Source of the DNA: Bacteroidia bacterium
GTDB taxonomy: Bacteria; Bacteroidota; Bacteroidia; J057
Direction of reading: 5' to 3'
Assembly: GCA_022760475.1 (NCBI GenBank)
Contig: JALEFZ010000085.1
Span: forward strand, 1 to 64,000
DNA: 64,000 bases
The position numbers were made by a program, and so were the translations under genes. Each line of letters opens with the position of its first letter. The first letter of the stretch is position 1. The notes beneath the pieces were generated by a model. The model was given only the letters and a program-made list of their open reading frames with translations. It was not told where the DNA came from and searched no databases. Below are positions 36,930 to 61,731 of the stretch, piece by piece.

Positions 36930-38147
36930 TTATAAAAAGGCTAATTTCGTTTCTATCATCTTGCCGAGCTTTATCCTTCTCATCAGCGCTTCCACGAAGT
37001 AATAATCGGCATATATGATGGGGACATCTACCTCTGAATCTCCTGGAATGTTGCCAACGCTGTGGTCAAGCAAAAAAGGAGGAGTATGTGCAAAAAACTC
37101 CTTGCTATTCAGGGTCTTCAAAGAGAGATCAATGCGAGGCAACATCTTACTATGACATGTTGAATCCAATTCACAAAGGATCAGCATCCCACATGTAGCA
37201 ATCGCAGCAGCAGAGGCATCCACTGGTTCATTAGGAATTTTTTCTGCATTAAAATCCCAATAGGGAACACCATGACTGGGCATATTGGGATGTTCGTACA
37301 TAAAATCTGAAATGGCAACGGCTTGTTTATAAAAGCGTGGATCTTTTGTTTCTCTGTATGCCATGGCAAATCCATATAGTCCCCAGGCCTGCCCCCTTGC
37401 CCAAGAAGATTCATGACTTTGCCCCTGATGGGTGTGGCGATTTCTCACTCCCCCAGTCAAGGTATCATAATCAATCACATGATAAGTACTGTAATCTGAC
37501 CTGAAATGATTTTTTAATGTGGTCAATGCATGCTGATAAGCTAAATCATAAAAAGTAGAATCCCCGCTTAAACGAGTGGCCTCAAATAACATCTCCAAAT
37601 TCATCATGTTATCGATAATTACTGGAAATTGCCAGACATCTTTATTAAAGTCCCATGATCTAATACAACCAACCTTGGGATTATACCTGTTGGCAAGTGT
37701 TTTGGAAGCTTCCAAAACCACCTCCATATAGGAATTGTCATTTGTGTTTTTGTAGGCTTGGCCAAAGCTGTTATAGACCTTGAATCCCAAATCGTGTGTA
37801 TGGGTGTCATATTTTTCCTTTTCCACAAATTGTGTCCAATCCAAGGCAGCTTCTTTGAACCGAGTGTCATTGCTATGGGCATATAACATCCAAAGTACCC
37901 CAGGATAAAACCCACTGGTCCATGATCTTGAATTTGTCCCATAAAGGCTTCCATCTTTGTGTGCGGATCTTGGAATGGCCATTGAATCAGGGTCTACCTC
38001 AGAAAGGTGAGCAAGGGCTTCTTTGCTGAGGCGCTCCATCTGTTTCTGATAGAATTTTGCAGATGGCTCTTTTCCACCAGACTGGTCAAAGGTACATCCA
38101 ACCAAAGCAACCAATAGAGAAATTAAAAGAAAACTGAATACTCTCAT
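36930..38147 (-). CDS. GH88 unsaturated glucuronyl hydrolase lipoprotein
   Basis: A 405-residue lipoprotein (lipobox ending LVGC, Cys18) of the (alpha/alpha)6 GH88 family, which hydrates and removes 4,5-unsaturated uronates made by polysaccharide lyases. The two key acids appear as Asp119 in HTHDLGF and Asp179 in IIDNMMNLE. Their 60-residue spacing matches the pair Asp88/Asp149 of the well-studied Bacillus enzyme. Other hallmarks are SWTSGFYPGVLWMLY, HQGQSHESSWARGQAWGLYG and PYWDFNA. Membrane anchoring suggests action in the periplasm on imported oligosaccharides. It follows a 218-bp gap with a small ORF-like remnant and precedes GH2. Confidence 0.95.
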   Translation of the reverse strand: MRVFSFLLISLLVALVGCTFDQSGGKEPSAKFYQKQMERLSKEALAHLSEVDPDSMAIPRSAHKDGSLYGTNSRSWTSGFYPGVLWMLYAHSNDTRFKEAALDWTQFVEKEKYDTHTHDLGFKVYNSFGQAYKNTNDNSYMEVVLEASKTLANRYNPKVGCIRSWDFNKDVWQFPVIIDNMMNLEMLFEATRLSGDSTFYDLAYQHALTTLKNHFRSDYSTYHVIDYDTLTGGVRNRHTHQGQSHESSWARGQAWGLYGFAMAYRETKDPRFYKQAVAISDFMYEHPNMPSHGVPYWDFNAEKIPNEPVDASAAAIATCGMLILCELDSTCHSKMLPRIDLSLKTLNSKEFFAHTPPFLLDHSVGNIPGDSEVDVPIIYADYYFVEALMRRIKLGKMIETKLAFL

Positions 38148-38365: not shown

Positions 38366-39979
38366 CTATCTATTCAAAATAAATTTTTCAGTATGCACCT
38401 TTTCACCCACACGAAGTCTTGCAATATAAAAACCGCCCTTCAGCTTGGAAGGTACTTCCCACTTGAGCTTATGTACACCTGCAGAAACAACTCCTTCATT
38501 TATGACAGAAAGCACACGCCCATTCAGGTCAAATACTTCAAGGACAACATCTCCTGTATGCTCCAGAGTAAAGACAAAATTAGCCTTCCCTAAGACTGGA
38601 TTAGGATATATTTTAAATGCCGTTCCGTCCAGTAATTCTTCATTATTTGTGGCCCCACCAAGATTCCATAGCTGGGGACAAGTAGAGGTTACACCGATGG
38701 CTCCCCCTGTAGTGGATGCCGTTGCAGAAGCAGAACTAGCGGAATAACATGGTGAAGTTTCAGATAGATCAAAGAGATTACCTGAGTCAAAAGCTGTTCC
38801 GGAAACCAGGATATCTTCCACAATGAAATCATACATGGAGTCAGATTGAGGATTGGCATAAAGGTCCTTCACATATTGCAGGATGGAGCCTGGAAGACTA
38901 TCGAAGCCGATTACCTCAGTAAAGTATGCATTGCCACTATCTGCAGCAGTACCCATGTTCTGAACGATCAAATCAGAAAGAATTCCTGGAGCGTTTACCG
39001 TATCTACGGTTGCCCAATAATCAGTTACATCAGATGTCCAAAATATGTTATTTCCCGCTATGGTTAGGTCGGTCTCGGCAAAAAGTGTATCAAGAGTTAT
39101 TACTTTATGCAAGTTATTGTCGGGCTGGGTTTGCTCGTCCGTGAATACCGGACTACTTCCCAACATGATTGGATTGCTGAAAATGTTGTTGGTAATGATG
39201 GCCTTTTTAACCCTTCCCAACTGGATATGACCATGACGTCCAGCAGTATTGAAAGAAGTACAGTGGTCAATCATGATATAGTTGTGGGGAACTACTGCTC
39301 CCTGGCTGCGGAAGAAACGGTCCTGGATGTTATGAACAATGGTATTGGTCATAACAAGGGTGTCCAAGGTAAAATTTCTAGCATCAACGCCACGGCCATT
39401 TCCCTGGAGGATTCTTCTATTTCCTCCATTTCGGAAAATACAGTTGTCGATAAAAATCTTGAGGCTATCAGCCCTTACCTGGATGAATCCACCACGGTCT
39501 TTTTCGATGATACAATCTTTCACAACGATGCGTGTTTTGGAACCGGAAGCACGAATCCTTCCCCAATCATGGTTCTCCAATGCACCTCTTTCTCCTGAGA
39601 TGATCCAAAGATTTTTAAAGGTAAAATCTCCTTCAGGGCGTCCAATGTCTGGATAGGTACCACTGGAATTGGGCAGACGTGTAAGGATAGCCTTATTTTC
39701 CAGATCTGTGAGGTTCTCAGCCTCAATTTGCAGCGGCCAATCTTTGGTATTGCGTAGTCGACCGGAGGTTACATAGGTAACCCCATTTTCCAATTGATAA
39801 ATAGTGTTGTTGTCAACTCGAGCTCCATTGGCTGTATCTCCCATGATCACAGGGAAAATATCCGTCGGATTAGCCGGGTCGCCGCTGGCGGCAATTTTCA
39901 CATAACGCTGGCCAAAGCTGGCCTGAGTCATTAGCATTGACAGTGCCAATGCTACGAAATAGTACATTTTCTTTTCCAT
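38366..39979 (-). CDS. T9SS-secreted right-handed beta-helix protein (partner of the receptor)
   Basis: A 537-residue secreted protein: signal peptide 1-23; a single right-handed beta-helix (about 50-400) built of short repeats such as DFTFKNLWIISG, RIVVKDCIIEKD, LKIFIDNCIFRNGG, TLVMTNTIVHNI and KKAIITNNIFSNP; a Ser/Ala/Thr-rich linker; and a T9SS type A sorting domain in the last about 80 residues (IYPNPVLGKANF...GGFYIARLRVG). The helix resembles PL6/chondroitinase-B-like folds, but I cannot identify the catalytic Lys/Arg set, so activity is open. It begins 28 bp after the TonB receptor gene, where a SusD would be expected in a classic PUL; it may bind or cut the glycan at the surface. Confidence 0.85.
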   Translation of the reverse strand: MEKKMYYFVALALSMLMTQASFGQRYVKIAASGDPANPTDIFPVIMGDTANGARVDNNTIYQLENGVTYVTSGRLRNTKDWPLQIEAENLTDLENKAILTRLPNSSGTYPDIGRPEGDFTFKNLWIISGERGALENHDWGRIRASGSKTRIVVKDCIIEKDRGGFIQVRADSLKIFIDNCIFRNGGNRRILQGNGRGVDARNFTLDTLVMTNTIVHNIQDRFFRSQGAVVPHNYIMIDHCTSFNTAGRHGHIQLGRVKKAIITNNIFSNPIMLGSSPVFTDEQTQPDNNLHKVITLDTLFAETDLTIAGNNIFWTSDVTDYWATVDTVNAPGILSDLIVQNMGTAADSGNAYFTEVIGFDSLPGSILQYVKDLYANPQSDSMYDFIVEDILVSGTAFDSGNLFDLSETSPCYSASSASATASTTGGAIGVTSTCPQLWNLGGATNNEELLDGTAFKIYPNPVLGKANFVFTLEHTGDVVLEVFDLNGRVLSVINEGVVSAGVHKLKWEVPSKLKGGFYIARLRVGEKVHTEKFILNR

Positions 39980-40007: not shown

Positions 40008-42926
40008 TTATTTAAGTTTGTATTGTAGACCCATTGTGCCCGTCCAGCCGTAAGTCTGGATGGTATTGGTATATTGGGGGTTTCGGGTAAATGAAATATC
40101 TCTCTGATTACTGATGTTGTTCAAGTTGGCAAAGAGGCTCCAGTGTTCTCCAAATTTTTGTTTAAGTGAAGCATCAAAACGCCAGAACTCATTATCAAAG
40201 GTGTCAAAGTCTTTGTTGACAGAGTAGTTGCTTACCTTGGTGCCCTGATAAGCTGCAGAAACCCTGAATGAAAATCCCTTGTAATCATAGCCCAATGAAG
40301 TTCTAAGGATGTGAGGCGCCTGGCTTCGCATGTTTACTTCTCTTGTCTGATTAGTAAAAATGGTTTCGAATATAGGCGGCACAGGAATGATAAGGACTTG
40401 CTCCGAGGTAAGGAAGAACACCTCCGTTTGAGAGTATAGCCTGGAGTAGTTAATATTAAATACCAGGCCATTCAATGGCTTTGGCAAAAAGCTAAGCGTA
40501 GTCTGAAAGTCCAGTTCGTACCCAAATACGGTTGACTGAGGTGAGTTGGTGAAGGAACTCAATTCATAGCCACGGTTGTTGGGAAAGCCAAAAGCCTGAG
40601 CAGTTGAATCATCCACAAGGAAGGTCTCCCAAGGGTAGAATATGTCCCTTACCTGTTTGTAAAAGAATCCCAGAGAGATCAGTCCATATCCACCCTTATA
40701 GGCCGAAATGGCCAGGTCATAATTGGTGGATACGGCATGTCGAAGGTTAGGATTCCCTGAGACAATGTCAATATTGCTGTCATTAATCTGGATACGAGGA
40801 GTTACATAGAAGAAATCAGGTCTGGCAAGTGTCTTTGCATAGGATGCTCTTATATCCAGCCAATCGTTTGGCTTGACCTTAATGTGTAGATGGGGTAAAA
40901 ATTCACCATATCTTTGAAAGGTGGTAGTATCAATGAAGAAACCATTGACTCCGTATCTTCCATTGACAGTAGAAAGTCCCGAACTATAGCTGTTGTCAGA
41001 ATATTCATAGCGAAATCCAGGGATGATGGTTAGCTTATCACCAAGTTTGAATTTGAACATCATATAGCCTGCTGCCACAGATTCGTCCACTTCATAGTTC
41101 TGGACCAGGGCATTCCTATCAGTATTTAGAATATCTCTTTGAGACTCATACCATTGTCTCATTTTTTCCGGATCAAGGCTAACATTCAAACCAATATCTT
41201 GTCCATCTCTATCCTGAAAGTTGATGTCATTTTCCTGCGTGAAAGAATTGATGCTGATAAGCAGTTGGTTCTGTGGCAAGAATACAAGGTCCTCTCCTAC
41301 CCCATTCTCTTCTCTGTAAGTCTCATAGGCCGCAATTGCCCGGCGAGCCTCCTCTGTACCCAGGTAATAAAATTCTTCTGACTGAATATCAAAATCACGA
41401 TCTCTAAGAATGTTTTTATATTTCCCTCCAAACTTAAGGGAACCAGATATTTTCTTTCCCCATTTATAAGGAAGCTCGAGATTAAGGGTAGCTGCTCTTG
41501 TAACCTCATCCACCCGAGAATTGCGAAGGGTTGTATTCCTCAGGATGGTTTCACCTAGGTTAGGAGTCGCTGCTGCAAAATAGTTGGAAGGGACATCATC
41601 CGGATCTAGCCCATCATCAAAGGGGTCTCGATTGTCACGAAAGCCCATTCGAAGGTCAAAGGGAGTTCTTCCCCTCGAGCGAGAATCTGCCAGGGTCCAG
41701 TCTATCTGGAAAGGTCCCAGGTTATGATTGCCAGTAAGGGAAAAGAATGTAATGTCAAGTGAGTTTTCTATCTCATTTCCAATAAACTCAATGCGCTGAT
41801 CTGAAGGAGAATAAATTTCTTCCATTTCAAAGCGATCACGGGTTGTTCGGCTAAACAATCCAAAGAAAGCAAACTGATTTCCTCCCAAATCATAATCCAA
41901 TCCAAGGCTGGTATTGTACCTGCGCCTGATTTCTTTTCGATCCTCTAAAGTGAGTCTGTTACCAAAAATCTCGGTTACCCCCAAGGAGTCCGTTGCTCCC
42001 TGCCTCCAACTTTGACGGTAGATATCACCTCCACGGTTGAACCGCTCTATACCCCCCTGAAAAACGACCCCTAATTTATCCTGGAACACCCGCTTACTGA
42101 TTTGAAGCACGCTTTTATTATCCCTTGCATCATTGTTTAGTTGATTATAACCACCCAAAACCTTGGCCAACAGGCGAAATTGCTTGGGGGCTTTTCGAAG
42201 TTTTAAGTTTACCGTACCCCCTACTGCCTCGGCGTCCATATCAGGTAAGGGAGACTTAAATACTTCTATTCCATCTAATAATTCAGGGGCAATGAGAGAT
42301 AGGTCTACCGAACGGTCCACACCCGAGTTAGATGGGAGATTTACACCATTTATCGTAATTGCGGCAAACTTAGGCTCTAGCCCTCGGATAACGACCTTTT
42401 GGCCTTCGCCACCACTTCGATTGATAGCAATACCTGGAAGCCTTGCTATGGCTTCTGCAGCATTTACATCAGGTAGTTCCTGGATTCGATCTGCAGAGAC
42501 CATATTGGCAATTGCATCCGAATTCAATTGTTGATTGATGGCCTGGGTTTGTCCCAATGCCTGGGCAGAGATTACTACTATATCACCCTTGATATCAATA
42601 GGGTTCATATCTATCAGTACCTCTTGAATTTCTTTAGCAGTTACGTTTATGGTTACAATCTTATCTTTATAGGTAAGGTAACTTACCTTAAGTTGATGTT
42701 CTCCTGCTGGGAGATTTGCCAGTGAAAAATTTCCATTCACATCTGTGATGCTTCCTCTTTTCAATGACTCAATCACAACATTGGCACCTGTCAGGATAGA
42801 CTGGCTGGAAGAGTCTCTCACATTCCCACGAATAATACCTCCCTGGGCAGACATCAAACTCCATGAGGCCATGCAGACTATAACTAGTAAGAGCCTTTTT
42901 TTCATGCCCATAAATTCTTGGTTCAT
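40008..42926 (-). CDS. TonB-dependent outer-membrane receptor (non-SusC type)
   Basis: A 972-residue outer-membrane transporter. ATG 42926 is annotated, though the signal peptide looks best from the internal Met at 42905. After the signal peptide comes a carboxypeptidase-regulatory-like beta domain (residues about 30-115, with DVNGNFSLANLPAG). The plug (about 125-245) has LPDVNAAEAIARLPGI and VVIRGLEPKFAAITINGV, which resemble the TIGR01782 class of TonB-dependent receptors rather than SusC/RagA. The beta-barrel fills the rest and ends with an aromatic-containing strand. It imports oligosaccharides using TonB-ExbBD energy. First gene of the minus-strand run toward GH88 and GH2; no SusD gene follows. 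Confidence 0.93.
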   Translation of the reverse strand: MNQEFMGMKKRLLLVIVCMASWSLMSAQGGIIRGNVRDSSSQSILTGANVVIESLKRGSITDVNGNFSLANLPAGEHQLKVSYLTYKDKIVTINVTAKEIQEVLIDMNPIDIKGDIVVISAQALGQTQAINQQLNSDAIANMVSADRIQELPDVNAAEAIARLPGIAINRSGGEGQKVVIRGLEPKFAAITINGVNLPSNSGVDRSVDLSLIAPELLDGIEVFKSPLPDMDAEAVGGTVNLKLRKAPKQFRLLAKVLGGYNQLNNDARDNKSVLQISKRVFQDKLGVVFQGGIERFNRGGDIYRQSWRQGATDSLGVTEIFGNRLTLEDRKEIRRRYNTSLGLDYDLGGNQFAFFGLFSRTTRDRFEMEEIYSPSDQRIEFIGNEIENSLDITFFSLTGNHNLGPFQIDWTLADSRSRGRTPFDLRMGFRDNRDPFDDGLDPDDVPSNYFAAATPNLGETILRNTTLRNSRVDEVTRAATLNLELPYKWGKKISGSLKFGGKYKNILRDRDFDIQSEEFYYLGTEEARRAIAAYETYREENGVGEDLVFLPQNQLLISINSFTQENDINFQDRDGQDIGLNVSLDPEKMRQWYESQRDILNTDRNALVQNYEVDESVAAGYMMFKFKLGDKLTIIPGFRYEYSDNSYSSGLSTVNGRYGVNGFFIDTTTFQRYGEFLPHLHIKVKPNDWLDIRASYAKTLARPDFFYVTPRIQINDSNIDIVSGNPNLRHAVSTNYDLAISAYKGGYGLISLGFFYKQVRDIFYPWETFLVDDSTAQAFGFPNNRGYELSSFTNSPQSTVFGYELDFQTTLSFLPKPLNGLVFNINYSRLYSQTEVFFLTSEQVLIIPVPPIFETIFTNQTREVNMRSQAPHILRTSLGYDYKGFSFRVSAAYQGTKVSNYSVNKDFDTFDNEFWRFDASLKQKFGEHWSLFANLNNISNQRDISFTRNPQYTNTIQTYGWTGTMGLQYKLK

Positions 42927-43279: not shown

Positions 43280-46200
43280 TCAGACTTCCATCATTTTTTC
43301 TTCGCGATATGCCGTTGGAGTCATGTTAAATTGTTTTTGGAAACATTTACTGAAGTACCTCGAATCTCGGAAACCAACCTGATAGGCGACTTCGGCAACC
43401 CTAAAGTTAGATTGGCTGAGCAGTTGGGCACTTCTCTTAAGTCGGAGGGATTTTACAAAATTATTGGGAGTTTGGTTGGTGATCCCCTTGAGTTTGGTAA
43501 ACAATAAAGGCCTGCTGACAGCCAACTCTCTGGCAAAAAGATCTACATTGAAATCAGGATCATCCATATATTCCTCAACAACAGAAATTGCTTTGGAGAT
43601 AAACTTCTCATCTGGAGAAGTCAGGGTAATTTCCTTAGGCTCCAATTTCAAAACTGTATGGAAGCGTTGTTTGATTCGCTTCCTGGATTCCAATAGGTTA
43701 AATACCTGGAGTTTTAACTCATAAGGGCTAAAAGGTTTGGTAAGGTATGCATCGGCCCCCGTTTCCAATCCTTCTACTTTGAAGATCTGGCCAGTCCTTG
43801 CAGTAAGCAAGATGACGGGGATATGGCTTGTTTCTAATTTACTTTTTAGTTGGCTACAAAGGTTGATCCCATCCATTTCTGGCATCATTATATCACTAAT
43901 AATGATATCAGGGGAAAATTCTATGGCTTTTTCAAGGCCTTGCTTCCCGTTATTTGCCAATATTACATGAAAGAATGGGGTAAATATTTTATGGATATAA
44001 GCCTGAACCTCCAGATTATCTTCTACAATCAGGATGGTTTCTTGTGGTGAATCTGACTCCTGAACTTCAAAAAGTGCTTTTTCCTCCTTAGCGACTTCTG
44101 TAGTAAACTTCTCCAAATAAGCGTCCATGTTTTCACTACTCTTGAAGTCTGCCAGGAAATCCTGGGGAACAAAATGTTCATTACCCTTTGGGATCGTAAT
44201 TTTGAAGCAAGCGCCTTTGAGTCTTCCCTTATCCAATGCAATTTTCCCACCATGCAATTCTATCAGTTGCTTGGCAAGCGCGAGACCGATACCACTGCTA
44301 GCCTCAGATCCGCTGGGATCAATGTCTCCTTGAAAGAAACGGTCAAATACCTTTTCAACAAGTTCTCCTTTTATCCCGGGACCGGAATCGCAAATCCGGA
44401 CTTCTACCCAGTCTTTTTGTGTCAATACAGCAATCTGGATTTTCCCTCCAGAGGGGGTAAACTTAAATGCATTAGAAATGATATTAAAAAAGACTTTTTC
44501 CAATTTATCTCTATCAAAAAAGAGGGGAATACTTTCTTCGGAGGATTCAAAATGATAGGCTATGTCTGATGTACGGGCTTTTTCCTGGAAAGACAAATAA
44601 ACTTCCCTCAGAAACCTGACGATATTTCCCTCTGCAACTTCAAGTCTATCATAATCTTTCTCAAGGCTTCTAAAGTCTAAGAGTTGATTTACCAAACGTA
44701 GAAGACGCTTTGCGTTCTGGTGAATGGATTGGAGTTGTCTTTCTCGACCAATGCTATCCATCCCATTTCGAATTAATTCTTCTACTGGGCCTAAAATCAG
44801 CGTAAGGGGGGTTCGAAATTCATGGGTTACATTCGTATAGAACCTCAATTTACTTTGATGTAACTCTTCTTGCTGCCCCTTGGCTATTTTCTCCAATTGA
44901 AGGCGTTGTTGCATAAGGATCAACCGATAAAGTACTGTAAGCAATATTATTAATAGGCTTAGGTAGATAAAGTAGGCAATCGGAGACTGCCATGGCGGGG
45001 GCAGCACAGTAATTTTCAGGGTCTTTTCTGTCTTGTTCCATATACCGTCATTATTTCCTCCCTTAAGTTTGAAGACATAATCTCCCGAACGCTGCAAAGT
45101 GTAACTGACTTCTGGTTGACCTTTTATATGCTTCCATTCTTTGTCCAATCCTTCAAGCTTATACATGTACTGGTTGTTGTCAGGATTAAGAAAATCAAGG
45201 GCAGCAAATTTCAAGGTAAAATTTGCCTTGTTGTAGGGAAAAACGATATGCTTGACCTTATTAATGGATTCAGAAATAATAGCTGTTTCATCATGGGGTT
45301 TAACAAGACGATTTGCTGAAGAAAGCGAAGTAAAAACTACTGGAGGTACAAAGGTATTGGTATGAATACTCCTAGGAAAGAAGGAAGTAAAGCCTTTGGT
45401 TCCTCCAAAAAACATTTCTCCTAAGCTGGATTTGTAAGCGGCATTAAAATTATATTCGAGGTTCGCCAATCCATCAGAATAATTATAATCTGTTACAGAA
45501 TTATCAGCTCTATTTATTTTTGCCAACCCCTTTTCAGTACTAAGCCAAATTTGGGATTGGTCATCTTCCAGCAGTCCAAAAACAGAATTTCCGGGTAACC
45601 CATTGGCTTTTGAATAAACTTCCTCCGTGGTTCCATCCGCAGCAAGTCGAAACAAGCCCTTTTTGTAAAAGCCTACCCAGATTTTCCCGTTATTCCCTTC
45701 TAACAATGAGCATACCATCCCGTCTTTTATCACATGCTGAAAATCTAGAACAGAATCTTCGGGATTAGGAATCTTATAAAGCCCTCTGGTTGTTCCTACC
45801 CAGATAGCTCCTTTAGCATCTTTTAACAATACCCGAACACCTCTCGCTTTAAAGCCTGAATTGGAAATTTCGTCTGGGCCATACTTATCCACCTGCCTAC
45901 TTTCAAGATCCATGATATTCAGGCCACCTCCATAAGTAGCAATCCATAATTTGTTGCCATTCAGTAGCAATCCATATACATTGTCATCACTTAAGTTTTC
46001 TCCTAGAGGCTTCTCCTTGTCAAACTTTTCCCACTTCCCAGAACGGATATTGAGGAGATTTAAGCCTTCGGCAAAGGTTCCTACCCAGAGGGAATCTCCC
46101 CTGCCAACCATGGCTTTGACATTGTTGCCACTAAGGCTATTCAGCTTCCCTGATTCGTATAAATAGTGTTTGTATTTCCCATTTTTGGGATTCAGGCAGT

Positions 46201-47389
46201 TGATACCACCCCCCTCTGTGCCTATCCAAAGATGATTGTTGTCGTCCTCCCAAAAGGCGCTCACTACCGCATGGCCAAGTTTATCTTCGCCTTCCTTGGG
46301 TTGATGGTGGGTAAATCGGTAGGATTCAGAATTATAGTAACTCACTCCTCCATAGTAGGTCCCAACCCAAGTACTTCCCCTGGAATCAAAGAAAATCGCC
46401 CTTACAGATCCATTGCTCAGGCTGCGTTCGATACCCAACTCCTTTTCGTATCGACTGAAATTTCCGGATTTTCCATTAAAAATACTTAATCCTCTGAATG
46501 TCCCAATCCAGACATTGCCCTTATTATCTATTTCCATGGATCGGACATCGTCGTCATTCAGGCTTCCACCATCAAAAGCGTCATGTTTATGGTGAATCAA
46601 TCCTTTACCAGCTTTCCATTGGTAAACTCCATCCTTTGGTGCTGCAAACCAGTAGTTGTCTTGGCCATCCTGCACACAAATTTGAATTGGAATATTTAGT
46701 GGACTACCATCCAGGTCCTTTACAATATTTCGTTCAAATACGGGTTGATTTTTGGAATCAAACTTCATGACGATTGGACCCAATCTGCTTCCAATCCAAA
46801 TCGAAGTATCCTTATCTTCCATCAGGTCCCAAATCAACATGTTGTGTTCAACATAACCATCTTCCAGAGAAATGGGCTGCTCCACAAAAAAACCCGTCTC
46901 TTCCTGGAACTTGAATAAGCCTCTTTCGGTACCAGCCCATAGATTACCCTTAGAATCCCTCAAAATATTTCGAACGTATTCTTGTGTAAGAGAATCATTC
47001 TTCCCCCTCTGGAAAAGTATATTCCGAAATGATTCATTTTCGGGCTCATACCAACATAGCCCCTTCGGACTGGAAATCCATAGCCGATCTATTTGCTTAT
47101 CATAATAGAGAAGTATGATTTCATTATCGATTAATCCTGAATGAGATGAGTCTCTTCCCACTTCATAAACCACCATGTTGTAACCGTCATACCTATTCAG
47201 CCCATTCCTGGTTCCAAACCACATGAATCCATCTCCATCCTGGGCAATGGCATAAACAGAATTCTGAGACAAACCTTTGCGATCATCAATGTGTCGGAAA
47301 AACAGAGATTCCTGCCCAAAGAGAGGTAAAGTACTGAGTGAAAGTCCAAAGGCAACAATCCAACAAAACCGTAATAGTAGAATATTCAC
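43280..47389 (-). CDS. Hybrid two-component system sensor/regulator (HTCS)
   Basis: A 1369-residue single-protein sensor and regulator of polysaccharide utilisation. Order: signal peptide 1-25; two-bladed-propeller periplasmic sensor of Reg_prop repeats (about 30-715, many NVWIGTFRGLSIF/LWIGTEGGGIN-type units); Y_Y_Y domain (about 720-785); membrane helix (about 790-812); HisKA with the phospho-His in HEFRTPLTLILGP (about 854); HATPase with NIISNAFKFTP, SGPGI and GIGLALAKQL; receiver domain with the phospho-Asp in IIISDIMMPEMDG (about 1164) and Lys in LTKPFSPYEL; and a C-terminal AraC helix-turn-helix (about 1260-1365). The frame has a stop just upstream, so translation must start at the GTG at 47389. 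It lies directly upstream of the receptor operon on the same strand and probably activates it when an oligosaccharide binds the sensor. Confidence 0.97.
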   Translation of the reverse strand: MNILLLRFCWIVAFGLSLSTLPLFGQESLFFRHIDDRKGLSQNSVYAIAQDGDGFMWFGTRNGLNRYDGYNMVVYEVGRDSSHSGLIDNEIILLYYDKQIDRLWISSPKGLCWYEPENESFRNILFQRGKNDSLTQEYVRNILRDSKGNLWAGTERGLFKFQEETGFFVEQPISLEDGYVEHNMLIWDLMEDKDTSIWIGSRLGPIVMKFDSKNQPVFERNIVKDLDGSPLNIPIQICVQDGQDNYWFAAPKDGVYQWKAGKGLIHHKHDAFDGGSLNDDDVRSMEIDNKGNVWIGTFRGLSIFNGKSGNFSRYEKELGIERSLSNGSVRAIFFDSRGSTWVGTYYGGVSYYNSESYRFTHHQPKEGEDKLGHAVVSAFWEDDNNHLWIGTEGGGINCLNPKNGKYKHYLYESGKLNSLSGNNVKAMVGRGDSLWVGTFAEGLNLLNIRSGKWEKFDKEKPLGENLSDDNVYGLLLNGNKLWIATYGGGLNIMDLESRQVDKYGPDEISNSGFKARGVRVLLKDAKGAIWVGTTRGLYKIPNPEDSVLDFQHVIKDGMVCSLLEGNNGKIWVGFYKKGLFRLAADGTTEEVYSKANGLPGNSVFGLLEDDQSQIWLSTEKGLAKINRADNSVTDYNYSDGLANLEYNFNAAYKSSLGEMFFGGTKGFTSFFPRSIHTNTFVPPVVFTSLSSANRLVKPHDETAIISESINKVKHIVFPYNKANFTLKFAALDFLNPDNNQYMYKLEGLDKEWKHIKGQPEVSYTLQRSGDYVFKLKGGNNDGIWNKTEKTLKITVLPPPWQSPIAYFIYLSLLIILLTVLYRLILMQQRLQLEKIAKGQQEELHQSKLRFYTNVTHEFRTPLTLILGPVEELIRNGMDSIGRERQLQSIHQNAKRLLRLVNQLLDFRSLEKDYDRLEVAEGNIVRFLREVYLSFQEKARTSDIAYHFESSEESIPLFFDRDKLEKVFFNIISNAFKFTPSGGKIQIAVLTQKDWVEVRICDSGPGIKGELVEKVFDRFFQGDIDPSGSEASSGIGLALAKQLIELHGGKIALDKGRLKGACFKITIPKGNEHFVPQDFLADFKSSENMDAYLEKFTTEVAKEEKALFEVQESDSPQETILIVEDNLEVQAYIHKIFTPFFHVILANNGKQGLEKAIEFSPDIIISDIMMPEMDGINLCSQLKSKLETSHIPVILLTARTGQIFKVEGLETGADAYLTKPFSPYELKLQVFNLLESRKRIKQRFHTVLKLEPKEITLTSPDEKFISKAISVVEEYMDDPDFNVDLFARELAVSRPLLFTKLKGITNQTPNNFVKSLRLKRSAQLLSQSNFRVAEVAYQVGFRDSRYFSKCFQKQFNMTPTAYREEKMMEV

Positions 47390-47696: not shown

Positions 47697-50342
47697 TCAG
47701 GGTCTGAACATCGTATCCACCTCAATAGTGGGATACAACAAAGCATTTCTCAATCCATCTTGATGGTCTATACAAAGTTGTACATAGGCTTTCTCAATCA
47801 AGGGATCATCTATATAATAATGTGCAAGCCAGATCATTTCTCTGAATGCTTTCATTCTGCTTTCAATGCCTCCAAGCTGTGTATATGTCCATTTTTTCTC
47901 CCCCAGCATATAAGGTATCAGGAATTTTACGGCCTTTTTGATTGACCTTCCATCTGAGGATTCATAATTCCAGAGGTCTATTCCATAATACTCACCTAAA
48001 ATAGCGTTTTCAAATAGGTGGTTTAAATTTTTAATGCTGTAGGTCATCGACTTGGTCCGCTCAAGTTCCCAAGGCTGGCTTCCATCGGGTTCGATTTGTC
48101 TGCTTATTCGCTTGATTGCTACTGAATCCAGAATTAACCTGGCTATGGAGTCTTCCCCAACAAACATAGAATAGGAAGCTACCTGACTGTCATAAGATGA
48201 GCCATGGTTGTTATGCCACCGCCTTTCATCCCAAGCTTTTTCACTGCTTACCAGCCATTCATTATAGGTTTTAAACCAGTTTTTAAGTTCCAGATCAAGT
48301 TCTTTAGAATATGATTTAGATCCTTTCAACATACCTACACCATTTATCACTTTTAGGAAATTTCCCGTTTCGATGATTCCAATCCCTCTACCCTCCACGA
48401 TTCCAGGAATAGCCTGGCCATACTCCAGATGGGGATTCATTTTGGTAGCAGGATTTACAAACCATGTATGTATCAATTCGGTGGACTTGGCTGCGAACTC
48501 TTCCTTTTCTGTAAAGAAATAAGCCAAAGAAAGAATATGTACCGCGTCGGCCATCTTGTGAAGGGAAACCCCATCATAGTCGTTATACTCAGGATTTTTG
48601 ATGCCATCCTTCCTGATGTAAGGTAAGCCGTCAGGCGTTTCAGGGTTTGGCCACCAATAGATCCCTAAACTGTAATAGTCATGTTTATCTCCACTTGGAG
48701 GGATGAGCTTTTTGTCCAGGATGGTATAGGGTTTTGTTGTGAGAAGCTGAGTTGCACGTTTGTCCAGATCTATGACCATGGAACTATTATTAAATTCTCC
48801 CCTTTTAAAGCTTTTTTTTGCATGAAGTAAGTTTGCCTTGTCATAAAGAAAGACCTCAGGTTGCTCTGCAATTCCTTTTATGGCTTGATCGAATTTTTGG
48901 TGCAGTTTAGCAGCAAGTTCCCTTACAATCTCCTTATAAGGTTCCATTTCCGCCACATTATAATTTTCCAGGGAGTCAGAGCGATGGTCATACAATTCTG
49001 CAGCCATTTTTCTACCAGATGCCAGCTGTATCCACTCTGTATATCGAAAACCAGTTGTCCGTAAGCTGAACCCACTTACAGTCCTATCTTCAGACCTTCG
49101 ATCCCTTGGGAAGATACTGAATACATCTTGATGAACCTCATTTTCAGGATTTTCAAGAATAGGGACAAGACTTTGACCTTCCAGGTGATCAGGTTTGGGA
49201 ACTCCAGTCAGATCACAAAGGGTGGGATACATATCCAGCAATTCAGCAAAAGCATTGCTTTGCTCTCCATCTGTCTTCATTCTGGGTGTACTGATTATCA
49301 AGGGTACGCGGGTATCAACCTCAAAATTAGTGTGCTTGCTCCATGCGTGGTGATCTCCAAGTTTCCATCCATGATCTCCCCAAAGCAGTACAATGGTATT
49401 TTCTCTGAGGCCATTTTTTTCAAGGGCATCTAGTACCCTCCCCAACTGTGCATCTACATAGCTAACACAGGCATAATAGGCCCTTTTTAACTGAATAGCC
49501 ATTTCATCAGGTATTTGGTCTTTTCCTTGGGGAATCCCATAATATCCTCTCAATTCCCCCCAGTTGGTCAAAGAATAAGCTGTCTGGCCTGAAGGGAATT
49601 CTGGAGCAGGACTCAAAGTCATCTCCTCTGGCTTATATAAGTCCCAATATTTTTTGGGGGCACACCAGGGAAGATGGGGCTTATGAAAGCCCAAGGCCAT
49701 AAAAAATGGCTTTTTACTCTTTTTTAATTTTTTGAGTTTAGAAATGGCAAAATCCGCATTCGCCCCGTCCAGGTACTCATTGTCTTGGACATTTGCGATT
49801 TCGTATGCAGGTCCTTTTTCCTTTTTGGAGGCATCAAATCGCTTATTTACCCGAATAAGGTCCTTGGCTTCTGGAGTAATATACCCCCGCCCAGTCCAAT
49901 TTTCTTTGGGATCATGCCAATCTTCGCCAAATTGGTCGATATGATCCTCATCATGGTGATATACTTTGCCAATACAAAGGGTCTTATAACCATTCTCTTT
50001 AAAGTGCTGATTTAAGGTAAGGACATTCGGAACCAAATCCGTTAGAGAAGCACAAGTATAAATTCTCTTATTTTCAGGTCTAATTCCACTCATTAGGCTT
50101 GCCCTGGAAGCCATGCAAATGGCTTGTTGGCAATAAGCCTTTCGGAAAAGCAACCCATCCTTTGCCAAGCGATCCAGGTTAGGGCTGTGGACCAAATCTT
50201 GTCCATATGCTCCAAAGTCAGGACGTAAATCATCTATAGAGATAAACAGGACATTCATCCTGGAAGGCACCAAGTTTTCTGAAACCTGTCCGTAATCCTT
50301 TAGGCTAAAAGTCAGAATAAAGGCAAGTAGTAGGTATCTCAT
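47697..50342 (-). CDS. Sulfatase fused to an alginate-lyase-superfamily domain
   Basis: An 881-residue exported bifunctional protein (signal peptide 1-19). Residues about 28-485 are an S1-type sulfatase related to iduronate-2-sulfatases: metal Asp37-Asp38 in ISIDDLRPD, formylglycine Cys76 in CMASR, the GKVYHH and GFHKPHLPW segments, and Asp323-His324 in WGDHGWKLGDHHAWSKHT. Residues about 500-870 are an (alpha/alpha) barrel of the Alginate_lyase superfamily (PL5/PL38-like): YYSLGIYWWPNPE, MNPHLEYGQA, the catalytic NNHG (711-714), and the Arg762/Tyr768 pair in ERTKSMTYS. Both halves keep their catalytic residues. It would remove sulfate and cleave a uronate-containing chain by beta-elimination in the periplasm. 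The neighbour at 50563 is a stand-alone relative of the second half. Confidence 0.93.
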   Translation of the reverse strand: MRYLLLAFILTFSLKDYGQVSENLVPSRMNVLFISIDDLRPDFGAYGQDLVHSPNLDRLAKDGLLFRKAYCQQAICMASRASLMSGIRPENKRIYTCASLTDLVPNVLTLNQHFKENGYKTLCIGKVYHHDEDHIDQFGEDWHDPKENWTGRGYITPEAKDLIRVNKRFDASKKEKGPAYEIANVQDNEYLDGANADFAISKLKKLKKSKKPFFMALGFHKPHLPWCAPKKYWDLYKPEEMTLSPAPEFPSGQTAYSLTNWGELRGYYGIPQGKDQIPDEMAIQLKRAYYACVSYVDAQLGRVLDALEKNGLRENTIVLLWGDHGWKLGDHHAWSKHTNFEVDTRVPLIISTPRMKTDGEQSNAFAELLDMYPTLCDLTGVPKPDHLEGQSLVPILENPENEVHQDVFSIFPRDRRSEDRTVSGFSLRTTGFRYTEWIQLASGRKMAAELYDHRSDSLENYNVAEMEPYKEIVRELAAKLHQKFDQAIKGIAEQPEVFLYDKANLLHAKKSFKRGEFNNSSMVIDLDKRATQLLTTKPYTILDKKLIPPSGDKHDYYSLGIYWWPNPETPDGLPYIRKDGIKNPEYNDYDGVSLHKMADAVHILSLAYFFTEKEEFAAKSTELIHTWFVNPATKMNPHLEYGQAIPGIVEGRGIGIIETGNFLKVINGVGMLKGSKSYSKELDLELKNWFKTYNEWLVSSEKAWDERRWHNNHGSSYDSQVASYSMFVGEDSIARLILDSVAIKRISRQIEPDGSQPWELERTKSMTYSIKNLNHLFENAILGEYYGIDLWNYESSDGRSIKKAVKFLIPYMLGEKKWTYTQLGGIESRMKAFREMIWLAHYYIDDPLIEKAYVQLCIDHQDGLRNALLYPTIEVDTMFRP

Positions 50343-50562
50343 AGCTATTTGAGCTAAGGTTTTTTGGTAGTCATTTCCAAAAGGTAATCCCTCAATGGAA
50401 TTGATATCATTATAATCTGCTCTCTTTCTATGGAATAATCAAAGTCGAATAGCTTTAATTAAGCTGAGGATACGATTTTCATATTAAAATTAGACTTTTC
50501 ACAAGGGCATTGAATCCGGCATGGAATAACTTATGGATGCAAGATTCCATAAATAATTGCCC

Positions 50563-51750
50563 ATGAAAAAGCCCATGACATTATGCATCATTCTTTTATT
50601 GATGTGCATGAATTCCTGTAAACAAACAGAAGCAGGCGTATCTGATGGTGCCTTAATTGCCCTAAAGGATGGCATTCTGGAACGAGCCTCCAGGAATCTC
50701 AACGAAAAACCTATCACAGTTACCCATGCAATAAGTACTCGAAGCACAGGTGGAATACATGACTTCTTTTCAGAAGGGGATTATTGGTGGCCTGACCCAG
50801 ATAATCCTGGAGGACCATACATCCGAAAAGATGGCCAAAGCAATCCAGAAAACTTTGGTGATCATCGCAAGGCTTTGATGAGATTCAGTGAGGTTGTAGG
50901 CAACCTTTGCTCTGCATTCCTGATCACAAATGATACAGGCTATGTCAATCATATTAAAGCCCACTGTGATGCATGGTTTGCAGTAGATTCCAGTAAGATG
51001 AATCCACATTTGCTATACGCTCAAGCCATCCATGGCAGACATACCGGTAGAGCCATTGGCATCATAGACGGCATCCACTTGATGGAGGTCGTCCAATCTC
51101 TCATAGTCCTGGAACAAAGGGGGCTCCTGGAAGGAGTTCGTCTCAACTCTTATAAGGCATGGTTTTCATCCTTTTTGAATTGGATGACTACCCATCCTTA
51201 TGGCCTCAAAGAAATGGTTCATCCCAACAATCACTCTACTTGCTGGAATATGCAGGTAGGGCTTTATGCCGACTTTACAGGGAATGATTCGATTTTTCAT
51301 GCCTGTGTTGAGCGGTTCACCCACATACTACTTCCAAGCCAGATGGCCCCTGACGGAAGTTTTCCCTTGGAACTAGCTCGAACCAAACCCTATGGTTATT
51401 CGCTATTTAACCTGGATGCCATGGCGGGCAACGCACTGGTGCTTTCCACGGACAGCCTCAACCTGTGGAATTATCAAGCTGACAGTGGACAATCGATCCA
51501 AAAAGGAATTGTCTTCATGGCTCCCTTTGTCAAGAACAAAGGTAGTTGGACTTGGCAAAAGGATATCATGTATTGGGAGAATTGGCCTGTCGCACAGCCT
51601 GCCTTCATTTTTGGAGCTAAGGCTTATGGAAGACCGGATTTTTTCCGCTTGTGGGAAGTTTATGAACACTTTCCTGAGGTATTTGAGGTAAAAAGAAATC
51701 TACCCATAAGAAACCCACTCATTTGGATGGAAAGGCTGAATTCAATCTAA
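50563..51750 (+). CDS. Alginate-lyase-superfamily lipoprotein (PL5/PL38-like)
   Basis: About 395 residues from ATG 50563 (a TTG at 50557 is the only upstream choice). A lipoprotein: lipobox ending MNSC at residue 19. The (alpha/alpha) barrel has DYWWPDPDNPGGPYIRKDG, KMNPHLLYAQAIHGRHTGRAIGIID, the catalytic-type NNHSTCWNMQ, and ELARTKPYGYS with the Arg/Tyr pair. The equivalent motifs in the sulfatase fusion match closely (YWWPNPETP, MNPHLEYGQA, NNHG, ERTKSMTYS), so the two are paralogues. It is divergent from the sulfatase fusion, separated by 220 bp. Probably a membrane-anchored lyase for the uronate chain; alginate itself is only one possible substrate. Confidence 0.92.
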   Translation: MKKPMTLCIILLLMCMNSCKQTEAGVSDGALIALKDGILERASRNLNEKPITVTHAISTRSTGGIHDFFSEGDYWWPDPDNPGGPYIRKDGQSNPENFGDHRKALMRFSEVVGNLCSAFLITNDTGYVNHIKAHCDAWFAVDSSKMNPHLLYAQAIHGRHTGRAIGIIDGIHLMEVVQSLIVLEQRGLLEGVRLNSYKAWFSSFLNWMTTHPYGLKEMVHPNNHSTCWNMQVGLYADFTGNDSIFHACVERFTHILLPSQMAPDGSFPLELARTKPYGYSLFNLDAMAGNALVLSTDSLNLWNYQADSGQSIQKGIVFMAPFVKNKGSWTWQKDIMYWENWPVAQPAFIFGAKAYGRPDFFRLWEVYEHFPEVFEVKRNLPIRNPLIWMERLNSI

Positions 51751-55133: not shown

Positions 55134-56543
55134 TTATTCAGGCATCCAATTATCCGTTCTAAAGGGAGAGGCAGGCAGTTCAGCCCCATTATAGAGATTC
55201 ATGTTTGCTGTATCAGAAAATCCATAACGAACAGCAACTGGATTTTTTACTCTTGAACTTGATACAATCAATACTTTCCCTTCAATTCTGGCCTTGGCGG
55301 AGTAAAATTTCCGATCCTCTCCTGCAATTTCAATTTCCTTCAGTTTTTCACCCCTTATGTGAAGGCCTTCATTGGCATGGTCAAAATGGATGTGGATCTT
55401 TTTTCCTACTACCTTATAATCCTTAAATAGTGGTCCAGAATACACCAACTGTTTCTTCCAATAATCCTTAGCCAAAGCCCAATATGCAAGACGCTCTCCT
55501 ACCTCTTTTTTGCGGTGGGGATGGATGTCTGTGGAATCCCCCACATCTGCCGTAACCACCATCCCGGTATGGGGTGAAACGAGTGTTTGAAGTTGGGCTT
55601 CTCTGATATATGGGGCACCTGCCTGGCCCCTGAGTCTCAGGTAATCATAGGGAGCTATTTGCACAAAATAGAAGGGAAGCTCCTCACCCCATTCTGCCCG
55701 CCACGCCTCAATCAGTTTGAGCATCAAGCGCTGGTAGCTATGGGGTCTCCAGCGATTACTTTCCCCCTGATACCAGGTGATGCCTTTAATTTTGTATCTG
55801 ACGAGGGGATGGATCATGGCATTATAAAGGATGCCGGGTGCCCTTGGAGAGGGGCTTTGCCCCTGGATACCTTCGGCAGATGCCGCCAAGACAGAGTCGC
55901 TCAACAGGTATGGAGCTGGAGTCCAGGCGTCAGCAGGCGTTCCGCCCCAACTGCTTTCAATACTTCCTATGGGAACCTTTAGGCTGTCGTGCAACATTTT
56001 GGAGAAAAAATACTTAACCGCAGAATACTTTTTTATGGTTTCAGGGCTACATTTGACCCATTTTCCTACCAGATCGTCCTGAGGAAATGGAGAAGTCTTT
56101 CGTTCTACCTTAAAAAGCCGGATATCAGGAAAATTGGCCGCCTTGATCTCTTCCTTATATGCAGGTATTCTATCAATAGACATTTCCATGTTGGATTGGC
56201 CAGATCCCAACCACACCTCCCCTACCAAAACATCCTTAATTTCTATGCTATCTTTGCCTAGAATAAACAAAGAGTATGGCCCACCAGCTATGGGCGTTTT
56301 AACTTGGACAGACCATCTCCCGGCTTGCGGATGAGTAACAAGGGTGTCCATTCCCCAGGAAGCCCATACTCTGATATCTTCCCTTGTCTGTGTCGTCCAA
56401 CCCCAAATGGTAACTGTAGTTTCCTGCTGCAAGACCATGTGATCCGAGATGATGGCAGGTAGAATTATCCTCGCCTGGATAGATTGGCAACACCAGATAA
56501 GAAGTGATAGGATCAGGATGAGTGTTGAAAGAAATGGTCGCAT
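55134..56543 (-). CDS. Sialate O-acetylesterase family (SASA) esterase
   Basis: A 469-residue exported enzyme (signal peptide 1-24). It has the typical N-terminal beta domain (about 28-100, with ILPAIISDHMVLQQ) and an SGNH hydrolase core. The nucleophile is Ser117 in GSGQSNMEMS; other family motifs are GSIESSWGGTPADAW, GITWYQGESN (Asn/Gly oxyanion) and the Asp/His pair in DSTDIHPHRKKEVG (about 340-355). A second beta domain ends the protein. Such esterases in polysaccharide loci remove O-acetyl groups from uronates or rhamnose rather than sialic acid; the real glycan is inferred from the neighbours only. It precedes no gene of the same operon closely (GH105 lies 71 bp upstream on the same strand). 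Confidence 0.93.
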   Translation of the reverse strand: MRPFLSTLILILSLLIWCCQSIQARIILPAIISDHMVLQQETTVTIWGWTTQTREDIRVWASWGMDTLVTHPQAGRWSVQVKTPIAGGPYSLFILGKDSIEIKDVLVGEVWLGSGQSNMEMSIDRIPAYKEEIKAANFPDIRLFKVERKTSPFPQDDLVGKWVKCSPETIKKYSAVKYFFSKMLHDSLKVPIGSIESSWGGTPADAWTPAPYLLSDSVLAASAEGIQGQSPSPRAPGILYNAMIHPLVRYKIKGITWYQGESNRWRPHSYQRLMLKLIEAWRAEWGEELPFYFVQIAPYDYLRLRGQAGAPYIREAQLQTLVSPHTGMVVTADVGDSTDIHPHRKKEVGERLAYWALAKDYWKKQLVYSGPLFKDYKVVGKKIHIHFDHANEGLHIRGEKLKEIEIAGEDRKFYSAKARIEGKVLIVSSSRVKNPVAVRYGFSDTANMNLYNGAELPASPFRTDNWMPE

Positions 56544-56614: not shown

Positions 56615-58486
56615 CTAGTCCAGTATTGATACTTTGAAGTCTTCATATCTGGAGCCTCTTGTCCACATATGCCTTAGCCCAATCCTGCCTTCCTTCACCA
56701 TTTGTGATTCATTCAATGTCCAATGGAATAAAAAATTATTTTCATCATTCCGGATGTACATAAAAAGATCCTTGCCCTTTTTAATGACTGTAATATTATA
56801 GGCTACCCCTTGTTCAAAAAGGCCAGTATTGAAATAACTTGGTTCTATATCTGTTCCTATTAATCTTCCTGATTCAGGCACATAACGTCTTGCCCTTATA
56901 TAATCAGCAGCGTTTTTGTTCATGTCAATGCCATAAGCTGCATAACTAATATGAAGGGTATTCATGTTTCTAAAATAGGTACTCATGGTAGGTACAACTC
57001 TTTTGTCTGACCATTTAAAAATATCAGCCTCATAGCCTTCTTCCCCACTTCCGGTCGCCTGGATATATAAAATGTTAACAGCTTCCTTCCTATCATCCAA
57101 CTTGGTATAGGTGTATTCTATCTTAATGTCTCCCTCAAAACTCTTTTTTGTCCATAGTACGGCATGATGAGCATTGACCTTTCTTGCAGGCCCTGCCCAA
57201 AATTCCAGGGCATTATCTATGTTTTTTACACTTGCATACGCTCCATCCAGTGCCCAATTTTTCTTCCATGAGTGGTGGAAGTCATCGCTAAAACCTTCTT
57301 TCCAATTCAAACTTTCAAGTTGAGCATAGAGCTTTGATTGATCGGCTTTGGGCTTGATTTCCTGGCTTTCCTTTTCTTTGAAAAAACGATACATCTCTGT
57401 TCCGGCAGCCAGGAAGGCTCCTGAACCATATACTTCAGTTCGATCTGGCCACGCCTGACCGGGGGCAGCACCCACAGGTTGGACATAGCCGAGTTTTCCC
57501 TCTGCTGAGACATGAGAAAGCAGGCAGTTCCAGCTTCTCAGTACAACAGGCTCAAATTTCGTCCTATCGAGGATTCCCTCGTTGATACCCCACGCAAGTC
57601 CAAAGGTAAAAAATGAAGTACCGCTGGTTTCTGGTGTGGGATATTCCTCTGCCTCCATCAAGCTCATGGCCCAATAGCCTTCTTTGGTTTGAAGGTCTCT
57701 GAGGGTTTCAGTCATTTTTAAATAAATCTCTAGGAAATAGGCATAGGCTTCGGTATCCTTTTCTAATGTCTGAAGTATATTGGCCAAACCGGCAAATACC
57801 CAACCATTTCCCCTTGCCCAAAATACCTTATGTCCCCTCTCATTTGGAAGTTTAAAACGCTCATCCCTGTAGTACATACCCAGTTTTTCATCTCTCAAGA
57901 AATCACTGGTAGCCTTATATTCCTTCATCAAGAAATCAAGGTACTTTTGTTCGCCTGTCTTTTGGTACAATTTGGCCCATACGGGCGGAGACATAAAAAG
58001 AGCATCACACCAATTCCACCTATCCTGATGGAATGGACTTCCCCAAGAGAGCGAAGATTGAGCAGGATGCATGAGGATATAATCAAATTGATCCTTCAAG
58101 TGCCTGATCATTTTTTCATCGCCAAATTTATCATATAGAGCCAGGTACATCTGACCAACTGCATGATCATCTGCATGATACATCCTTGAGTGAAGTTTCC
58201 AGTCATGTGCCTTGCCTATCCTCCGCAACCAGGTATAAAATCGATCATCTTCTGATAATTCTGCCCATTTGGACATGCCAACATACAACGCAGCATTGTG
58301 CCAGGAAAGGGGGTGGTGTGCTTGAATATAGCTGCTGTATAGATCCTGAAAATGTTTTATTTGCCAGTCTGCTACTTTCTCCATGACAGCCTTGGTCTGG
58401 GCAGTCCTTTGAGGCTGGGCAAAGACCCCTCCTGACCATAAAAGGATCACAAGCAGACTGCTAACACATGTGATGTATTTTTTCAT
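56615..58486 (-). CDS. GH105 unsaturated uronyl hydrolase fused to DUF1961 domain
   Basis: A 623-residue exported protein (signal peptide 1-23). Residues about 30-370 are the (alpha/alpha)6 GH105 domain: MYHADDHAVGQMYL, WNWCDALFMSPPVWAKL (catalytic-type Asp), FWARGNGWVFAGL and TSFFTFGLAWGINEG. These enzymes take 4,5-unsaturated glucuronyl or galacturonyl residues off lyase products. Residues about 395-623 form a beta-sandwich with YEADIFKWSDKRV, IRARRYVPESGR and IGLRHMWTRGSRYEDFKV, which matches the DUF1961 family, usually a separate protein. The fusion suggests the sandwich binds the substrate or a second step. Located 71 bp upstream of the acetylesterase gene, same strand, so likely co-transcribed. 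Confidence 0.9.
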   Translation of the reverse strand: MKKYITCVSSLLVILLWSGGVFAQPQRTAQTKAVMEKVADWQIKHFQDLYSSYIQAHHPLSWHNAALYVGMSKWAELSEDDRFYTWLRRIGKAHDWKLHSRMYHADDHAVGQMYLALYDKFGDEKMIRHLKDQFDYILMHPAQSSLSWGSPFHQDRWNWCDALFMSPPVWAKLYQKTGEQKYLDFLMKEYKATSDFLRDEKLGMYYRDERFKLPNERGHKVFWARGNGWVFAGLANILQTLEKDTEAYAYFLEIYLKMTETLRDLQTKEGYWAMSLMEAEEYPTPETSGTSFFTFGLAWGINEGILDRTKFEPVVLRSWNCLLSHVSAEGKLGYVQPVGAAPGQAWPDRTEVYGSGAFLAAGTEMYRFFKEKESQEIKPKADQSKLYAQLESLNWKEGFSDDFHHSWKKNWALDGAYASVKNIDNALEFWAGPARKVNAHHAVLWTKKSFEGDIKIEYTYTKLDDRKEAVNILYIQATGSGEEGYEADIFKWSDKRVVPTMSTYFRNMNTLHISYAAYGIDMNKNAADYIRARRYVPESGRLIGTDIEPSYFNTGLFEQGVAYNITVIKKGKDLFMYIRNDENNFLFHWTLNESQMVKEGRIGLRHMWTRGSRYEDFKVSILD

Positions 58487-61208: not shown

Positions 61209-61731
61209 GCAAGTTAGTAGTATAGGTTCCAATAGAGGTGTTTTTAAGATATAGGAATGCCATGATAATTCATGAGAAAGTATCTCTAGCGCTTGGGAAA
61301 AGCCTAAACAGAGATTAATTCAGAAAGCAATGGTGATTCCAAAAACAACATCATAAAACAGCCTCCTGGATACAATACTACCATCCAAAAATTTGAGGAT
61401 TGTGGAATTTAGTCTAAAAAGGGTGGGAAAAAAGTCAAGGATTCAATTAATCGAAGTACAGAATCCCCTTAGCTGAAATGGTCATGATTTACCAGTGAAC
61501 TGTACGATGACCATAGGTCAAGGGCCTATCAAGGTGGAAACTCTTCAAAATGATACCTTAGGATATAAAAAAGAAGAATTGCCCCCTAAATTTAGATTTC
61601 TGAGCGGGCCCGTTGCTAGACATATTCCTTTATGAATCTTTATTTTGAAAAGGGTTCTAGTCATATTACCCTATACTTTTTGAGGCCGCCATTCATCCTC
61701 CTTTAACCACTGCTTGCAAAAGACTACTGTT
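61209..61731. other. Divergent intergenic region, four-repeat gene / DUF4861 gene
   Basis: About 520 bp without a convincing gene. It must contain both promoters. TAAATTTAGATTT near 61587-61599 resembles the left part of repeat copy A, but no full element is present. Near 61670 a TACTTTTTG is one base off the TAnnTTTG box; I do not call it. Confidence 0.5.

Follow-up and report, generated by a model that had tools for sequence, protein, structure and literature searches.

The characterized members of the sulfatase subfamily S1_7 include human iduronate-2-sulfatase (IDS), which acts on iduronate 2-sulfate (PMC5066984), the ulvan 2-sulfo-xylose enzyme P18, and also 4-sulfo-galactose enzymes (PMC9096561). 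The substrates on record for PL38 lyases are alginate, β-1,4-glucuronan, and hyaluronan/chondroitin sulfate (PMC13027841). The acid-base residues of one of them, BoPL38, are H243 and Y298 (PMC13169297), and another, Amuc_0778, was reported together with a GH105 to be active on the glycosaminoglycans (GAGs) tested except heparin sulfate (PMC11790493). A sulfatase joined to a glycan-cleaving domain is known from the GH78|S1_25 hybrid P36, presented as the first enzyme with a multimodular build in ulvan degradation (PMC8511951). Here, we describe a gene in a 64,000-nucleotide stretch of Bacteroidia DNA (contig JALEFZ010000085.1, positions 1 to 64,000; hereafter the window) that encodes an S1_7-like sulfatase and a PL38-type lyase in a single chain. 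The two domains, their active-site residues, the short junction between them, their conservation, and the recurrence of the pairing lead us to infer, with good confidence, a bifunctional and probably periplasmic enzyme that would carry out two successive steps in the breakdown of a sulfated glycan rich in glucuronate.

The fusion gene and its two domains

The reading frame runs on the minus strand from 50342 to 47697 through 881 codons without an internal stop, and 27 stops are present on the plus strand at the same coordinates. Its parts are as follows (L042 being a homologue introduced below).

47697..50342, minus strand: whole fusion gene, sulfatase then lyase, 881 aa (single open reading frame; Pfam; AlphaFold2 model)
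50268..50342, minus strand: N-terminal signal peptide region, residues 1–25, MRYLLLAFILTFSLKDYGQ... (read from the sequence)
48870..50264, minus strand: sulfatase domain, residues 27–491, S1_7-like, formylglycine site C76 (VIA-align, sequence matches, catalytic residues)
48852..48884, minus strand: very short junction, about residues 487–497 (gapless alignment to L042; model)
47724..48863, minus strand: PL38-type lyase domain, residues 494–873, with H713, R762, and Y768 (structure alignment, catalytic residues)

Pfam placed Sulfatase at residues 30–381 (3.6e-47), SGSH_C at 329–483, and Alginate_lyase at 544–818 (6e-78), the last profile being covered over positions 6–275 of 275. The AlphaFold2 model, for which the input had 50 rows, reached a mean predicted local distance difference test (pLDDT) score of 90.7 and a predicted template modelling score (pTM) of 0.86, with a pLDDT of about 90 across the junction (~487–500). 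Both the model and the structure alignment leave almost no linker between the two complete domains. No lipobox was seen in the protein, and Pfam gave no Por_Secre_tail match; since the signal peptide is accompanied by neither a lipobox nor a type IX secretion system (T9SS) tail, the enzyme is probably soluble and periplasmic.

The sulfatase half (model residues 27–491) was aligned end to end with 6hhm, the P18 structure, by VIA-align/Foldseek (Z 50.5, 40% identity), and sequence searches matched 6hhm at 6.8e-104 and human IDS at 2.6e-72. The placement in S1_7 is one by best match, with 350 bits to 6hhm and 242 bits to human IDS against 127 bits to the next sulfatase. All tested sulfatase residues are present in the fusion protein, and D37, D38, C76, R80, K126, H129, D323, H324, and K336 were invariant in 22 aligned sulfatases. 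As to the maturation of C76, the source genome holds 11 matches to PF03781, the broad family of the formylglycine-generating enzyme (FGE), and no anaerobic sulfatase-maturating enzyme (anSME) above the cut-off; judging from these matches, the FGE-family proteins could make formylglycine.

The lyase half (model residues 492/494–874) aligned with Z 47.5 to 3nnb of Bacteroides ovatus (3nfv/3nnb) and with Z 41.3 to BoPL38 (8bdq; Foldseek, VIA-align), its fold being the (α/α) toroid of PL38. H713, R762, and Y768 correspond to H243, R292, and Y298 of BoPL38, and Y91, D108, Q173, and N242 of that enzyme are kept as well, which makes seven of the eight tested residues. N712, H713, R762, and Y768 were invariant in 30 aligned lyases, which, like the 22 sulfatases, were the relatives that served for the model. 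In the lyase tree, the deep branches of which are weak, the fused lyases fall in the half that holds BoPL38 and 3nfv. Chance motif matches as the source of the two domains are ruled out by these full-length folds.

The earlier note on this DNA, made from the sequence alone, had proposed a complete S1-type sulfatase and a complete alginate-lyase-superfamily barrel, joined within residues 485–500. The analysis upheld each part of this proposal: the CMASR motif is C76-M-A-S-R80, the Asp pair is D37-D38, and DHGW starts with D323-H324; N711-N712-H713-G, R762, and Y768 were found under a nearly full Alginate_lyase profile, and the join was located at about residues 487–497.

The junction and the origin of the fusion

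The usual arrangement in other phyla is that of two adjacent genes. Separate neighbouring sulfatase and lyase genes were found in KSB1, Verrucomicrobiota, Acidobacteriota, Pseudomonadota, and Bacteroidota loci, the sulfatase gene coming first in most pairs and second in L118/L121. Draconibacterium mangrovi (L059) likewise carries a separate pair. At L217, two neighbouring lyase genes directly follow the sulfatase gene. The genes of such pairs nearly touch, so a lost stop, a frameshift, or an assembly join could mimic a fusion, an outcome the earlier note had named as refuting its view. It was looked for and not found. A Bacteroidales metagenome-assembled genome from a separate project (L042) encodes the same fusion, 880 aa long and 53% identical over 845 residues, and the two junctions align without a gap over IKGIAEQPE/IPGMQTKPS. 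The short contig of L042 also carries homologues of the stand-alone lyase (47%), the GH2 (53%), and a β-helix protein (43%) of the window. In the pairs inspected, most of the separate lyases come with a start of their own and a hydrophobic, signal-like leader. The fusion protein has no such leader between its domains, and the sulfatase end passes straight into VFLYD (HQKFDQAIKGIAEQPE followed by VFLYD), the point where mature separate lyases start (RVFLYD in L043). Because the segment with the lyase start and leader is missing, a mere lost stop cannot explain the fusion. Together with L042 and the relic in L044 described next, this rules out an artefact for all practical purposes, and the fusion of the two domains in one chain is real.

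The sulfatase of L044 (L044:9959-11740) is unfused, but about 36 residues trailing it match the lyase N-terminus (LYDAASLLYARGRYRHG...), followed by a piece resembling a sulfatase C-terminus. None of 1000 shuffles reached the score of this relic against the window, L042, L043, or L045. In the sulfatase tree, the window protein groups with L042 and L044 (Shimodaira–Hasegawa-like approximate likelihood ratio test, SH-aLRT, 100), L044 standing next to L042 (91), and the window and L042 are sisters in the lyase tree (99). Because of the lyase-like residues after its sulfatase, L044 is read as a probable fusion that later lost its lyase.

A third fusion, L160:1-2676 (L235:7683-10298), shows the opposite arrangement, with the sulfatase behind the lyase; it came from another genome in the order that was sampled around L042. 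Its sulfatase falls in a different clade, and one clade for the three fused sulfatases was rejected by the approximately unbiased (AU) test (p-AU 0.0002). The lyase half of L160 also lies in another clade of the lyase tree, the AU test covering the sulfatase half only. A single fusion event that includes L160 is therefore rejected on the sulfatase half, and, as read from the trees, the sulfatase–lyase fusion has had at least two origins, with opposite domain orders. The gene of this reverse-order fusion adjoins one for a GntP-like transporter.

Rarity of the pairing and other partners of the lyase

The lyase domain was surveyed in 395 Bacteroidota genomes, 393 genomes of L042's order, 338 of L045's phylum (Verrucomicrobiota), 82 of L043's phylum (KSB1), and 392 of L064's phylum (Planctomycetota); the top loci from each search were opened, along with most of the long frames, so the survey is not exhaustive. 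Among 125 distinct lyase open reading frames and the loci analyzed later, a sulfatase shared the chain with the lyase only in the window, L042, and L160. The view in the earlier note that this fusion is uncommon thus agrees with three cases among the lyases examined. Many already described fusions of this kind, the other outcome that the note had named as refuting, were also sought: the literature searched contained no description of an S1_7 sulfatase fused to a PL38-type lyase, and, in the loci opened, the surveys added only L042 and L160 to the window.

The same lyase family is joined more often to other partners, namely GH88, GH2, an esterase, or a second lyase. Fusions with a GH88-like domain, in either order, were seen in L157, L164, L166, L170-L172, L220/L257, and L244; the GH88 part was verified by Pfam or a match to the window GH88 in L164, L170, L220, L244, and L257 and recognized by visible likeness in the others. 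The lyase stands behind a GH2 β-glucuronidase-like domain in L221, L246, L248, and L257 (L257:3997-7593), with an esterase in L044 (L044:17521-19479) and L050, and as a tandem of two different PL38-type domains in one chain in L191:235-2607. The L044 cluster holds several fusions, as a GH2 joined to a GH88/GH105-type domain (L044:3-2720) occurs in the same cluster as the esterase–lyase fusion.

Proposed function and order of steps

The repeated, independent fusion is strong evidence that the two enzymes act on the same molecule. The PL38-type domain would cut at a uronic acid by β-elimination and leave a 4,5-unsaturated uronate, with H713 and Y768 as the acid-base pair and R762 presumably serving the carboxylate. 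The sulfatase domain would remove a sulfate, most likely the 2-O-sulfate of a uronate or of its pentose analogue, and the neighbouring GH88/GH105, GH2, and esterases would complete the breakdown of the oligosaccharide.

Three points weigh against this scheme. The 2-O position is not assured because S1_7 also contains 4-O-sulfate carrageenan sulfatases. H297 of BoPL38 is replaced by Thr (T767) in the fusion lyase. Finally, 'Alginate_lyase' modules may be inactive in fusions, as is the N-terminal module of RiPL8 (PMC13027841). The last two bear on the idea that one half is catalytically silent and works as a scaffold or binding module. We regard this as improbable: apart from H297, both halves retain the catalytic residues tested, which are invariant across the relatives, and the position equivalent to 297 is variable among related lyases too.

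As regards the order of steps in a bifunctional enzyme, our preference, a tentative one, is that the lyase would act first and the sulfatase would then unlock the product for GH88. This sequence appears natural because a GH88 is present in the cluster and because a 2-O-sulfatase must precede GH88 in GAG degradation by B. thetaiotaomicron (PMC6994673). A literature search on a 2-O-sulfatase with an unsaturated glucuronyl hydrolase returned no paper. The reverse order, put forward in the earlier note, is a possible variant of the same scheme and slightly less favoured; here the sulfatase would have to clear the cleavage site, or the position beside it, of sulfate before the enzyme's own lyase cuts, and the fusion would couple desulfation to chain cleavage. 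This variant draws on P18_S1_7, the nearest solved sulfatase, for which an endo action on 2-sulfo-xylose is described, showing that S1_7 domains are able to work within a chain, and on the precedence of the sulfatase gene in most adjacent pairs. However, the order of the genes does not reveal that of the reactions, and the domains of L160 and the genes of L118/L121 are arranged the other way round. Moreover, prior desulfation is not a necessity for PL38 enzymes in general, since Amuc_0778 was assayed on, and active on, sulfated chondroitin sulfate and dermatan sulfate. That the two activities follow no fixed order is unlikely. We consider it more doubtful still that the two sites are obligately coupled, neither domain being efficient alone on the native chain, for a polysaccharide without an assigned enzyme pathway; if true, obligate coupling would make the fusion a new sulfated-uronan lyase activity, e.g., on a 2-O-sulfated glucuronan-like polymer.

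Gene neighbourhood and candidate substrates

The genes around the fusion gene are listed below.

30246..31151, minus strand: BD-FAE-type esterase (PF20434, 8e-27)
31334..34255, plus strand: secreted β-helix-like protein with CBM96 (5.2e-64) and a T9SS tail (Por_Secre_tail, 3.6e-8)
34354..36825, minus strand: GH2, β-glucuronidase-like (1.3e-287 to 6d7j; 53% identical to the L042 homologue)
36930..38147, minus strand: GH88 unsaturated uronyl hydrolase (1.9e-95 to 3wiw)
38366..39979, minus strand: secreted right-handed β-helix-like protein with a weak T9SS tail, possible lyase (Beta_helix 0.0018, weak; Por_Secre_tail 1e-5)
40008..42926, minus strand: TonB-dependent receptor (PF00593, PF07715, PF13715)
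43280..47389, minus strand: hybrid two-component sensor/AraC regulator (HTCS) adjoining the fusion gene (Reg_prop, Y_Y_Y, HisKA, HATPase_c, Response_reg, HTH_18)
50557..51750, plus strand: stand-alone lyase from another clade of the same family, divergently transcribed (PF05426, 5.2e-74; tree)
55134..56543, minus strand: SASA-type acetylesterase (PF03629)
56615..58486, minus strand: GH88/GH105-type unsaturated glycuronyl hydrolase with a C-terminal domain (1.9e-57 to 4ce7; PF07470, DUF1961)

The esterases, GH2, GH88, GH105-type enzyme, and second lyase of this cluster are, as separate genes, the partners found fused elsewhere. The stand-alone lyase keeps the tested BoPL38 residues except H297. 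The lyases, the GH88 near 3wiw, the GH105-type enzyme near 4ce7, the β-glucuronidase-like GH2, and the CBM96 neighbour all point to uronates, although no single polymer is picked out by these sequence matches. An alginate-binding module served to establish the CBM96 family (PMC9971899); the β-helix/CBM96 protein, homologues of which occur in the clusters of L042 and L044, could be a further enzyme acting on uronans. Ulvan is a possible but weak candidate substrate, suggested by the nearest solved sulfatase, an ulvan S1_7 enzyme, and by the neighbour resembling the ulvan hydrolase 4ce7. It is not indicated by the lyase, the PL38 family being known on glucuronan, alginate, and hyaluronan/chondroitin sulfate, nor by the neighbouring BNR_4 protein, for which sequence searches gave no match to any solved structure. 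A dehydratase such as the ulvan enzyme P29_PDnc, which yields the same unsaturated uronate by removal of water, was considered and rejected; P29 homologues are predicted with PL37, a different family.

No SusD match was obtained among the scanned open reading frames of 30.2–61.2 kb, so the adjacent SusC/SusD pair of a SusCD-type polysaccharide utilization locus was not found, and the TonB-dependent receptor has no SusD partner despite the adjoining HTCS regulator. Sequence searches found no solved relative for the protein at 38366..39979. At 58698-61232, the window encodes an 844-aa secreted protein with four similar repeats of ~190 residues and a T9SS tail, otherwise without a Pfam family.

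Comparison with known systems

The fusion ties one subgroup of S1_7 sulfatases to one group of PL38-type lyases and puts both domains into one construct, in which the sequence of desulfation and cleavage can be examined. The fusions of this lyase family with GH88, GH2, esterase, and sulfatase may reveal the whole pathway for one acidic polysaccharide.

The lysosomal human IDS (5fql, S1_7) shares the sulfatase fold (Z 44.8), the DHGW motif, and the aligned catalytic residues with the fusion protein, but it has a single catalytic function and 31–35% identity. BoPL38 (8bdq), the PL38-like 3nnb/3nfv (BACOVA_01668), Amuc_0778, and RiPL38 resemble the other half in fold (Z 41–47.5) and catalytic residues; none is described as fused to a sulfatase in the literature consulted, and RiPL38 bears a 3keto-disac_hyd module instead. 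P18_S1_7 (FA22070, PDB 6hhm), from the ulvan cluster of Formosa agariphila, matches the sulfatase half over its full length and falls in the same subfamily by best match, yet it is a stand-alone enzyme, with 2-sulfo-xylose in ulvan as its substrate (PMC9096561). A fusion of a sulfatase with a glycan-cleaving enzyme is already known, and, within the literature searched, what is new is the pairing of S1_7 with a PL38-type lyase. The closest precedent in design is the P36 GH78|S1_25 hybrid of ulvan clusters, in which a sulfatase is likewise joined to a glycan-cleaving domain for consecutive steps; there, both families are different, the glycan-cleaving partner is a rhamnosidase, and the rhamnose is desulfated before hydrolysis (PMC8511951).
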